DNA of 27,220 nt, from positions 1 to 27,220 of IMG/VR virus record IMGVR_UViG_3300007363_000081; one strand, given 5' to 3'. The translations under genes were made by a program, and so were the position numbers. Positions 7,647 through 16,136 of this stretch are shown in pieces. Source of the stretch: a virus. The notes under the pieces were generated by a model. It was not told the DNA's origin and made no database searches. It saw only the letters and a program-made list of their open reading frames with translations. Each line of letters begins with the position of its first letter. Positions within the stretch are counted from its first letter, which is position 1.

Positions 7647-7675
7647 CTATAGCAGGTGTCACGTTATACGTCAAG
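7647..7675 (-). promoter_or_regulatory. Promoter of the TM2 gene
   Basis: On the minus strand: -35 TTGACG (7670-7675), 17-bp spacer, -10 TATAGT (7647-7652). The start codon ends at 7636, leaving a leader of about 4 nt. It overlaps the 3' end of the upstream winged-helix gene. Confidence 0.75.
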
Positions 7676-7684
7676 CCGTATAAG
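7665..7684 (-). promoter_or_regulatory. Operator copy 1, overlapping the -35 of the TM2 promoter
   Basis: TTATACG, six bases, CGTATAA: a perfect 7-bp inverted repeat around GCTTGA on the minus strand. It is the most symmetric member of four related sites (others at 11863, 16076 and 16119). It covers the -35 hexamer and also the stop codon of the 7671-8186 gene. Confidence 0.65.
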
Positions 7685-8186
7685 CCTTTTCGAGCGCCAT
7701 GTTATCTTCCATGATCAGTTTGGCCTGCCTCTCAAGGAACGGAGCCCTACAAGCCCCTAGGTTGAGTTGAAACGCGCCTTTGAGCTCTTGATACGTTTCT
7801 TGCCAAGATCGAGCCTGTGCGCGAGCTGTGGCCTCGAGGCGCTGCATTGCATCCTCAACCTCGCTCATCGTTTCGGGCACCCAGTATCCTTTCACATCTG
7901 ACAGTATCGGGACGTGGTACTCGATCCGTAGCCTACGGATGATCGCACGGACCTGTCGGAGCGTTGTTTCTTCTGGGTTTCTGAGGTTGATATCTGCTTC
8001 GTGGGTATCGTGGCAACCGAGCCAGCGCTCGCTTTTCATTATCTCCCTCTGTGTTATCCGGCCCGATGGCCTCTTTTTTGCCTCAAAACTGATCAGCGAA
8101 AGCACGGCCAGCTCATCATTTGAGAGGCGTGTCAGATCAACAACGATCTCACGGCTGCCGATTTTGTAGGTCCAAGAGTCTGGCAT
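7671..8186 (-). CDS. Winged-helix DNA-binding-like protein
   Basis: 171 residues. The central part (about 70-105: EETTLRQVRAIIRRLRIEYHVP, then ILSDVKGYWVPE) reads as a recognition helix followed by a wing ending in GYW. This pattern is seen in small phage and plasmid winged-helix proteins that choose between alternative start-site or operator contacts. The N-terminal part (about 15-55) may hold a second HTH (LSNDELAVLSLISF, GRITQREIM). The C-terminal 65 residues are helical and charged. It lies 4 bp after the coiled-coil gene at 8191. It is a reasonable candidate for the regulator of the four operator sites, one of which overlaps its own stop codon, but nothing in the sequence proves it. Confidence 0.6.
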   Translation of the reverse strand: MPDSWTYKIGSREIVVDLTRLSNDELAVLSLISFEAKKRPSGRITQREIMKSERWLGCHDTHEADINLRNPEETTLRQVRAIIRRLRIEYHVPILSDVKGYWVPETMSEVEDAMQRLEATARAQARSWQETYQELKGAFQLNLGACRAPFLERQAKLIMEDNMALEKAYTA

Positions 8187-8190
8187 AGGG

Positions 8191-8562
8191 TCAGAACAAC
8201 TTTAACTGGCGTTCGTACTTGATTTTGATGACGGGCTCGTATCTCACGGACTCGCCCTCGATCGCAATGGATTGGCCTTTCATAAGCAGCGAGAAAGCCA
8301 GATCGCTCAAGCATTGCTGATCGTCATTGATCGAAAGAGTGAGCTTGTCCAGCTCCTCCTGCTCTGTCGGCATGGTCTGCATCATCTCGGCCTCGAGCTG
8401 TTGCTTCTTGCTGCGTATGGCGGCGATCTGGTTGCTCGTTTCCACGTAGCTGGTGTTTTGGGAGAAAACGTCTTTTATTTGCTCGCGGATCTCTTTGCGC
8501 CGCTGCTTGTTGCCAGCGATGCGCATGAGGATGTTTTTGATGTCCTGTGTGTCTGCTTGCAT
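8191..8562 (-). CDS. Coiled-coil phage protein of unknown function
   Basis: 123 residues, mostly helical: KNILMRIAGNKQRRKEIREQIKDVF, then NQIAAIRSKKQQLEAEMMQT and a charged C-terminus with VRYEPVIKIKYERQLKLF. Heptad-like spacing suggests a coiled coil over about 15-85. The gene begins one base after the previous stop (8564) and ends 4 bp before the winged-helix gene, so the three probably share one transcript. I do not recognise a named family. Function unknown. Confidence 0.6.
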   Translation of the reverse strand: MQADTQDIKNILMRIAGNKQRRKEIREQIKDVFSQNTSYVETSNQIAAIRSKKQQLEAEMMQTMPTEQEELDKLTLSINDDQQCLSDLAFSLLMKGQSIAIEGESVRYEPVIKIKYERQLKLF

Positions 8563-8563
8563 A

Positions 8564-8812
8564 TTATCGAGAATCTGGGAGGCAGGAGATGGCGTTAGCG
8601 CCGAACGTCCAGCAGGTTACGCGCTGGGAGTCATCATGGAAGCGATAGAAATAATGGGCCGGGGACTCGCCTACCCGGACAGCCTGCGGGAGCTCTGGAT
8701 GGACTGGGAGCTGCATGTTTAGAAAGAGAAACAGAGGGACCAGAATACTGGAAGCAACAAGCAGACACAAACCTCCAATCAAGAGGTTGTCTTTGAAGCG
8801 ATCGTTTTCCAT
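8564..8812 (-). CDS. Small single-pass membrane protein
   Basis: 82 residues. One hydrophobic helix (about 11-32, LIGGLCLLVASSILVPLFLF) is followed by a short soluble domain: YFYRFHDDSQRVTCWTFGANAISCLP. The pair of cysteines in the CW...ISC.P phrase recurs in small phage and mobile-element membrane or periplasmic proteins. It is sandwiched between the small HTH gene (3 bp upstream) and the coiled-coil gene (1 bp downstream), hence part of the leftward operon. Role unknown. Confidence 0.55.
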   Translation of the reverse strand: MENDRFKDNLLIGGLCLLVASSILVPLFLFLNMQLPVHPELPQAVRVGESPAHYFYRFHDDSQRVTCWTFGANAISCLPDSR

Positions 8813-8815
8813 AGC

Positions 8816-8995
8816 TTAGAGCTTCACCTCGCCGCCTTTACCGTAGACGGCCTTGTTGATGGTTTGAAATGGGAGATGGTTCGCTCGAGCGATCTCCTTG
8901 ACGCGTTGGCGTCGATACAGACGATTGCCGGATAGCTCTCGAGCCTGCTTCTGCTCCGGGGTGGGTAAAGACTGTTTTGTTTCCTCTGGGGGCAT
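8816..8995 (-). CDS. Small basic HTH-like protein (59 aa)
   Basis: A 59-codon ORF that fits tightly before the membrane-protein gene. The protein starts MPPEETKQSLPTPEQKQA and contains RLYRRQRVKEIARANHLPFQ followed by TINKAVYGKGG. The segment KEIARANHLPFQTINKAVYG looks like a helix-turn-helix of the compact Cro/XRE type, with basic residues before it. It could bind DNA as a small regulator and is an alternative candidate for the operator-binding protein. The structured repeat element A lies immediately upstream (9013-9161). There is no Shine-Dalgarno. Confidence 0.5.
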   Translation of the reverse strand: MPPEETKQSLPTPEQKQARELSGNRLYRRQRVKEIARANHLPFQTINKAVYGKGGEVKL

Positions 8996-9012
8996 AATGG
9001 ATAGATTGCGCG

Positions 9013-9161
9013 GTTAAATCCCGCAAGGTGATGATGAGAGATGGCTTTTAGCCAACGCTGGCAATCAGCAATGAGTGATTCAGCGGTCTATAGCCCGCTC
9101 ATTTTGCTCATGTTTGCTCATCGTCACCTTGCGAGGGGCGACGGTTTCCTAGGCCGTCGCC
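9013..9161. repeat. Structured inverted-repeat element, copy A
   Basis: The left arm at about 9013-9039 (minus strand CTCATCATCACCTTGCGG) is matched by the right arm at about 9116-9136 (plus strand CTCATCGTCACCTTGCGA). These arms form an inverted repeat of about 18 bp with few mismatches. A perfect hairpin follows: GGCGACGG (9137-9144), 9-nt loop, CCGTCGCC (9154-9161). Inside, GCTCAT occurs three times at 9097, 9106 and 9116. Related elements lie at 9781-9921 and 10219-10329. No T tract follows either strand, so it is not a plain terminator. It sits just upstream of the small HTH gene. Confidence 0.6.
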
Positions 9162-15709: not shown

Positions 15710-15879
15710 TTCTTAGCTTTCTTCTTGCCTTTCTTGGCATGGTTTTCCTTGCGCCACTTCGACCAGCGCTTGCTGACGAGCTTCGAGAAGTAGCCGGGTG
15801 GCCGACTGTCACGGAGTGCCCTGCCGCCCTTCTGGTGAATCGTGATACCTTCCTCCGTGATAGGTTTGGTCTGTTGCAT
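15706..15879 (-). CDS. Small basic protein (57 aa), first gene of the leftward operon
   Basis: A 57-codon ORF. The product starts MQQTKPITEEGITIHQKGGR and ends in a very basic tail (SKRWSKWRKENHAKKGKKKA then KK), with net strong positive charge. Its stop overlaps the ERF start (ATGA). It is the first gene after the leftward promoters and is preceded by a -10 TATAAT (15896-15901) 16 nt before the ATG. It is probably a nucleic-acid-binding or recombination accessory protein. No named family is recognised. Several other ORFs cross this stretch in other frames but none is tied in as tightly. Confidence 0.55.
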   Translation of the reverse strand: MQQTKPITEEGITIHQKGGRALRDSRPPGYFSKLVSKRWSKWRKENHAKKGKKKAKK

Positions 15880-15895
15880 AACGGGTAAAAATATG

Positions 15896-15901
15896 ATTAT
15901 A
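15896..15901 (-). promoter_or_regulatory. Possible -10 element before the small basic gene
   Basis: TATAAT on the minus strand, 16 nt from the ATG, with no good -35 at 17 bp (TCTTAC). It may be a secondary promoter for the leftward operon. The same bases overlap a rightward -10 candidate, so the site is ambiguous. Confidence 0.35.
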
Positions 15902-15909
15902 CTGGCATG

Positions 15910-15961
15910 GGGTGAATGGTAAGAGAGTTAGCGAGCGGGCGGCATACCTGCTCGTTTTTTT
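15910..15961 (+). ncRNA. Candidate short antisense RNA ending at an orphan terminator
   Basis: A plus-strand promoter candidate (TTGCAT 15874-15879, 18-bp spacer, TATACT 15898-15903) would start an RNA near 15910. It would run about 50 nt into the terminator at 15932-15961. This RNA would be antisense to the 5' leader of the leftward operon. No gene lies before the terminator on this strand. The layout resembles the lambda OOP RNA near its origin; that comparison is by position only. Confidence 0.35.
15932..15961 (+). terminator. Orphan intrinsic terminator
   Basis: CGAGCGGG (15932-15939), 7-nt loop, CCTGCTCG (15947-15954), then seven T's. The 8-bp stem has one G-T wobble. It points rightward although the nearest plus-strand gene starts downstream at 16260, so it must end a short RNA or block stray transcription. 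Confidence 0.75.
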
Positions 15962-16073
15962 ATTCCTGCCCGATATGAGGCAGAAGGACGAACACGCCGG
16001 GGGAGAGATACAGCCTAGGCCGTGGCTTCCCCCGACGTTGGGGTGTGGCAGACGAGAAGTCACCACTGCGAGG

Positions 16074-16102
16074 ATCATACAGCAAGCCGTAAGAGTTGAC
16101 AA
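16074..16102 (-). promoter_or_regulatory. Leftward early promoter
   Basis: Minus strand -35 TTGTCA (16097-16102), 17-bp spacer, -10 TATGAT (16074-16079). Transcription would begin near 16067 and cross about 190 nt of leader to the first gene at 15879. Operator copy 3 fills the spacer. Confidence 0.75.
16076..16093. promoter_or_regulatory. Operator copy 3
   Basis: CATACAGCAAGCCGTAAG on the plus strand, related to TATACTGCAAGCCGTATA at 11863. The GCAAGCCGTA core is intact and the outer arms are weaker. It lies in the spacer and part of the -10 of the leftward promoter. Confidence 0.55.
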
Positions 16103-16117
16103 GGGGAGATATCCACA
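16103..16117. promoter_or_regulatory. Conserved upstream box, copy 2 (DnaA-box-like)
   Basis: GGGGAGATATCCACA, identical to 11891-11905. It lies in the gap between the two divergent -35 elements, next to the leftward -35 exactly as in copy 1. ATATCCACA is one base from a consensus DnaA box. Confidence 0.5.
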
Positions 16118-16118
16118 C

Positions 16119-16136
16119 TTAACAGCGAGCCGTATA
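16119..16136. promoter_or_regulatory. Operator copy 4
   Basis: TTAACAGCGAGCCGTATA, related to TATACTGCAAGCCGTATA with 14 of 18 positions shared. It overlaps the rightward -35. With copy 3 it allows one protein to control both divergent promoters. Confidence 0.55.

Follow-up and report, generated by a model that had tools for sequence, protein, structure and literature searches.

Background

In phage lambda, cI and Cro control transcription at OL and OR, short operators that overlap divergent early promoters next to the replication genes. Each promoter has three operators. The arrangement of the right operators, cro and O is seen in the lambda genome sequence (NC_001416). In mycobacteriophage L5 one repressor acts at several places throughout the genome (PMC6550527); the 20-30 stoperators are asymmetric, mostly located off promoters and oriented with transcription. 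HipB is a dimeric repressor related to Cro with the consensus TATCCN8GGATA and four sites (PMC3920265), all in one promoter region. Here we describe four related 18-bp sites in an uncultured phage record, IMGVR_UViG_3300007363_000081, of which the whole stretch of 27,220 bp was analysed and is called the window. We read these sites, with moderate confidence, as the operators of one dimeric sequence-specific regulator, most likely a small phage-coded repressor from the leftward gene cluster.

The locus resembles lambda in that short operators lie over divergent early promoters beside a replication gene, but each promoter has a single operator of another sequence, no cI or Cro gene is recognisable, and two more operators are found on internal leftward promoters. 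Dispersed sites for one regulator would be shared with L5; however, there are four sites only, partly symmetric and all on promoters, which does not fit stoperators of the L5 type. The layout of the HipB sites as described (5-bp arms, an 8-bp middle, four sites) is matched here, although the arms have another sequence and the sites are dispersed. No hipB-like gene was found among the window proteins scanned.

Sequence and symmetry of the four sites

The initial annotation of the window placed four sites at 7665, 11863, 16076 and 16119, and all of them were found at those starts. Operator 1 (TATACGTCAAGCCGTATA; 7665..7682), operator 2 (TATACTGCAAGCCGTATA; 11863..11880) and operator 3 (CATACAGCAAGCCGTAAG; 16076..16093) serve the minus strand and are given here in plus-strand letters; operator 4 (TTAACAGCGAGCCGTATA; 16119..16136) is on the plus strand. 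Their consensus is TATACnGCAAGCCGTATA, with 10 of 18 columns invariant, the half-site GCCGTA among them, and a variable left half. The outer TATAC/GTATA arms that had been assigned to all sites are complete in sites 1 and 2 only, where they form TATAC-N8-GTATA with 5-bp arms and an 8-bp middle, whereas sites 3 and 4 carry variants. The arms belong to a longer imperfect palindrome, TATAC n GC nn GC n GTATA, because dyad pairing peaks at the motif centre. This is the best of 80 dyad centres, with 25 of 36 pairs compared with 16 for the next (mean 9.0, standard deviation 3.5), and the sites have 7, 7, 6 and 5 of 9 possible pairs.

The 12-mer core GCAAGCCGTATA alone is weak evidence because it is no commoner than expected when up to three mismatches are allowed (18 matches vs 17.4). 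With at most one mismatch there are 3 matches vs 0 for the backward control. The 18-mer as a whole is well beyond chance. Matrices built from the other three sites were run over both strands of 2.83 Mb of related real phage and host DNA, and the left-out sites 1 to 4 scored 18.2, 20.5, 15.2 and 15.2, with 0, 0, 9 and 7 equally good positions in that DNA, corresponding to 0, 0, 0.09 and 0.07 expected per window length. Each left-out site outscores every non-site position of the window on its own strand, and site 3 scores slightly less than sites 1 and 2 do on their reverse strands. A matrix scan of this genome, proposed with the initial annotation, returned only the four sites in the window, every one on a predicted promoter. 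With the full symmetric matrix these have 20.0 to 24.2 bits, site 1 being the second-best match, and the best position beyond them has 12.4 bits. A suspected fifth site at 18148 turned out to be a half site only, whose best register (start 18132) gives 7.56 bits, well under the scores of the four.

Placement on predicted promoters

Promoters were scanned mechanically over the whole window, with a separate scan of 7340-19000, by counting consensus bases out of 12, and transcription was assumed to start 7 nt past the -10 hexamer. Only four promoters of the window reach 10 of 12 bases, and all four overlap a site. Operator 1 covers the -35 hexamer of the predicted promoter of the TM2 gene (TTGACG-17-TATAGT; 7646..7674, minus strand; 10/12) and overlaps the gene upstream at its 3' end. 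Operator 2 extends from the -10 hexamer into the spacer of a predicted internal leftward promoter (11861..11889, minus strand), in which TATAAT is combined with TTGCAC (17 bp) or TGCACA (16 bp). Operator 3 has the same register in the predicted leftward early promoter at the head of the leftward gene cluster (TTGTCA-17-TATGAT; 16074..16102, minus strand; 10/12), and operator 4 covers the -35 hexamer and most of the spacer of the predicted rightward promoter of the replication gene (TTAACA-17-TATGAT; 16119..16147, plus strand; 10/12). The predicted starts lie about 3 nt 5' of the TM2 ATG and 5 nt before the ATG at 11849, and these two genes would thus be nearly leaderless.

The spacers of 17 bp that had been proposed for all four promoters hold for sites 1, 3 and 4; the promoter at site 2 has 10 of 12 bases with a spacer of 16 bp (TGCACA) and 9 of 12 when read by eye with 17 bp (TTGCAC). 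Likewise, the operators do cover the spacer or the -35 hexamer as proposed, but operators 2 and 3 also reach the -10 hexamer. The centres of operators 1 to 4 are at about -34.5, -17.5, -17.5 and -26.5, so that sites 2 and 3 are in register and sites 1 and 4 are not. These offsets differ but are always over the core promoter, which fits steric repression of RNA polymerase. The divergent predicted promoters carry operators 3 and 4 back to back, with 43 bp between the operator centres.

Probable host and relatives

Terminase alignments yielded at least 184 related phage or host loci, and closer kin may exist beyond the matches listed. Among the matches listed in species genomes there are 80 loci, with 33-42% identity to the terminase of the window; 58 have titles that name Patescibacteria lineages, 19 are named only 'bacterium' and 3 belong to other phyla (Omnitrophota, Bacillota, Pacearchaeota). 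A Shine-Dalgarno-like sequence is present at 1 of 17 long open reading frames (ORFs) of the window, and several Peribacteria, Peregrinibacteria and Paceibacterota loci of similar guanine-cytosine content are likewise poor in Shine-Dalgarno sequences. Judging from these sequence comparisons, the host of the phage probably belongs to the Patescibacteria, a very large group of tiny bacteria of which hardly any are cultured.

The site is absent from these relatives. With the symmetric matrix no match of 20 bits or more was found in the 184 related loci listed (maximum 17.1), and the counts at lower thresholds were not above those of the reversed-matrix control. Counts of the palindrome did not exceed those of the control in either of two further sets. 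They were 42 vs 51 in 21 genomes of Patescibacteria plus 5 virus records, and 60 vs 84 in a set from the likely clade and its kin (10 genomes plus 10 virus records, the latter with none). The site therefore looks phage-specific.

When viral_contigs was scanned with the ERF, replication, terminase and 7671 proteins, at most one distant replication gene turned up, and the nearest kin among the matches listed have the capsid (52% in L039) or a methylase in common with the window, not the early region. Several matches to the motif were rejected as relatives. The pattern TATACNNCAAGCCGTATA was found in 18 stretches of viral_contigs, 13 of them in two groups with near-identical flanks unlike those of the window, and no window protein accompanied it, so these were judged unrelated. 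AGCCGTA together with GGAGATATCCAC was found in 3 stretches of viral_contigs, none with a window protein. A pair of near-sites on one contig of G408, one of them a single base from site 4, was dropped because ORF reading of the contig shows genes like those for rod shape and penicillin-binding proteins and the matches lie off the listed promoters.

Repeated promoter sequences with other motifs do occur among 107 related loci searched by promoter k-mers: L106 and L189 each contain a repeated promoter stretch (30-43 nt), and in L113 a 17-mer recurs. In the phage locus L106 (5730-6070) a promoter with an identical spacer is present three times within about 330 bp. The Patescibacteria locus L113 has two promoters about 4 kb apart (3858 and 7978) with the palindromic TTATTGCAA...TTGCAATAA in common.

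Candidate binding proteins

Three proteins of the leftward cluster, all encoded on the minus strand, had been named as possible binders, and the search gave support to none of them. The protein encoded at 7671..8186 has a winged-helix-like predicted order of helices and, as the initial annotation pointed out, its stop codon lies within site 1. Its match to PHROG 2113 (unknown function) is weak (E 4.1e-8), its single-sequence model is poor (predicted local distance difference test, pLDDT, 51.5), and no match was found in 379 Patescibacteria genomes. For the 59-amino-acid protein at 8816..8995 a three-helix model was obtained (mean pLDDT 70.7), without a family match or a significant structural match; a likeness to lambda Cro was rejected (p 0.23). 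The small protein at 10578..10778 is weakly GcrA-like, with a Pfam GcrA match of 14.2 bits (E 0.058) that is under the cut-off of 26.9 bits.

Neighbouring genes and other elements

The record starts with a tape-measure-like gene and ends inside the capsid gene, and part of the structural genes is therefore missing. Leftward genes extend from 15879 to 7430 and rightward genes from 16260. Downstream of operator 1 is a gene for a TM2-domain membrane protein (7430..7636, minus strand; Pfam TM2, E 1.3e-16), downstream of operator 2 a gene matching PHROG 6631 of unknown function (11322..11849, minus strand; E 1.3e-6), and downstream of operator 4 the gene for a DnaD-like or O-like replication protein (16260..17144, plus strand; PHROG 2514, E 3.4e-6). 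The leader of the replication gene (16177..16252, plus strand) has a stable hairpin (z -5.34) followed by TTTTCTT just before the ATG at 16260, and looks like a terminator or attenuator. Another strong terminator-like hairpin (15930-15957, plus strand) separates the divergent promoters from the start of the leftward cluster. The replication gene also contains six ACCGACAC repeats at 16593-16774, which are probably the iterons of the replication origin.

A second element, GGGGAGATATCCACA, adjoins three of the four promoters, some 43 bp before the predicted starts. It is present as an exact 15-mer upstream of the promoter at operator 2 (11891..11905, plus strand) and between the two divergent -35 hexamers (16103..16117, plus strand). 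It includes ATATCCACA, which is one base off the DnaA-box consensus. The window has somewhat more near-DnaA boxes than expected (9 vs 4.1), and a count of 9 was reached in 1 of 100 shuffles. When two mismatches are allowed, GGGGAGATATCCACA has 21 matches vs 5 for the control in the 10 host-clade genomes and 10 virus records, all of them in the genomes, and TTATCCACA is the reading of four such matches among those listed. An inverted repeat, TGTGACAC ... GTGTCACA, is found beside operator 2 at 11907-11936, and TGTCAC also adjoins operator 1 (7657-7662).

Further inside the leftward cluster there is a structured non-coding element in three copies on the minus strand (9010-9140, 9780-9910 and 10214-10310). 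Its ends are conserved, its closing stem is long, and the copies have fold z values of -4.75, -5.66 and -3.12. It has no Rfam family at gathering score, and a covariance model built from it matched in the window only, among 82 sources. A tRNA-like gene at 9410-9526 (minus strand) has about 48 extra nucleotides in the anticodon region; it gave 39.4 bits with the Rfam tRNA model when 7000-17000 was searched, and the search of the whole window at gathering score lists nothing. ARAGORN made no call there but reported an odd tRNA at 9842-9937, inside one copy of the three-copy element.

Discussion

The initial annotation suggested that one protein could switch several transcripts together. A single regulator is very likely because the same partly palindromic site recurs on the leftward early, internal leftward, TM2 and replication promoters. 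A dimer would bind TATACnGCnnGCnGTATA, with its 5-bp arms and 8-bp middle, and would then cover the -35 hexamer, the spacer or the -10 hexamer, so that RNA polymerase could not use the promoter. The divergent pair at 16074-16147 would act as a switch similar to PL/PR, and since the distance between operators 3 and 4 is about four helical turns, the binding of two dimers could be cooperative. Through operators 2 and 1 the internal leftward and TM2 promoters would come under the same control, and one dimer would set all four promoters. The candidate genes are downstream of operators 3 and 2, so that the regulator would hold back its own production and would probably serve as a Cro-like early shut-off. 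Early shut-off is, as a guess, better than lysogeny; no integrase was seen among the window proteins scanned, not every one of which was scanned for an integrase.

If a host repressor such as LexA bound the sites, the early genes would answer to the state of the host, for instance to DNA damage. LexA is common there, 203 of 286 clade genomes having a match over the cut-off, and its boxes in Patescibacteria are, like the sites described here, palindromes at promoters; by eye they too are located between the -35 and -10 hexamers in the clade. TATAC-N4-GTATA, with the same arms, was found in 2 of 30 lexA promoters (L248 and L249), and a pattern like GAAC-N4-GTTC in 8 of the 30 lexA stretches of the phylum, which include two (L227 and L238) that do not start like LexA and are uninformative. 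However, the gap is 4 bp in the clade boxes read and not 8 bp, and Peribacteria-type lexA promoters have GTGTAC-N4-GTACAC (L253 and L259) or a variant of it (10 of 12 matches read, the partial L258 and L261 being left out). The window is without any LexA box of these kinds. LexA itself was rejected as the binder on this spacing for the clades read, and the mismatch in the gap together with the lack of enrichment of the phage palindrome in the host-clade genomes tested makes a phage-coded repressor the better reading. Another host factor might bind instead, but we regard control by a host repressor as unlikely overall.

The location of sites 2, 3 and 4 mainly in the spacer, and the GcrA-like match of the 10578 protein, would suit an activator or sigma-70 cofactor that opens the promoters from within the spacer, but that match is under the cut-off, the variable operator offset (-17.5 to -34.5) is ill-suited to an activator, and promoters with 10 of 12 bases are already good sigma-70 matches; we find such a role improbable. 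There might also be no regulator at all, the promoters being duplicated cassettes with the spacer sequence as a passenger. Sites 2 and 3 are indeed alike over 33 nt at 73% and have the flanking GGGGAGATATCCACA in common, and sites 2 and 4 are alike over 19 nt at 84%. Yet the position of the site differs between promoters, so it was not merely carried along with the hexamers, the symmetry has its maximum at the motif centre, and site 1 is the second-best match even though it is partly within coding sequence. We give the cassette explanation equally little credence. As a further alternative, the replication protein might bind the sites as iterons of an origin and also repress its own promoter, since two sites flank the control region upstream of the replication gene. 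This is highly improbable considering that this gene has its own ACCGACAC repeats, that other repeats occupy the corresponding part of the replication gene in two other phages (L004 and L039), and that sites 1 and 2 are on promoters 4 to 8 kb away. Genes of the lambda O type usually contain their iterons.

Some observations weigh against a phage-coded repressor. No known repressor family had a significant match among the window proteins scanned. Eight small proteins, the three candidates among them, were compared with lambda Cro, cI and cII in 24 tests, and none was convincingly alike (lowest shuffle p 0.012), which adds to the lack of support for any named binder. The activity of all four promoters is predicted only, and the host RNA polymerase may have preferences of its own. 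The shared flanks of sites 2 and 3 may reflect a recent duplication, and the four sites are therefore not fully independent. A relative with the same early region was not found among the matches listed.

A bolder version of the repressor reading, which we consider doubtful, is that an undescribed repressor family uses four dispersed operators to shut early transcription, replication and two nearly leaderless genes, while GGGGAGATATCCACA ties three of the promoters to the level of host DnaA. It had been stated that no phage operator with this core was known, and a text search for the core, judged by titles, gave none; nor was a paper on phage promoters or repressors in Patescibacteria found in open-access full text. 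The control is of a known kind for phages with a new site sequence, and the novelty is mainly in the host group. Four defined operators and a few small proteins offer a direct route to the first regulator of a Patescibacteria phage, and the pair of operator and regulator could be tested in E. coli with no need for a culture of the host.

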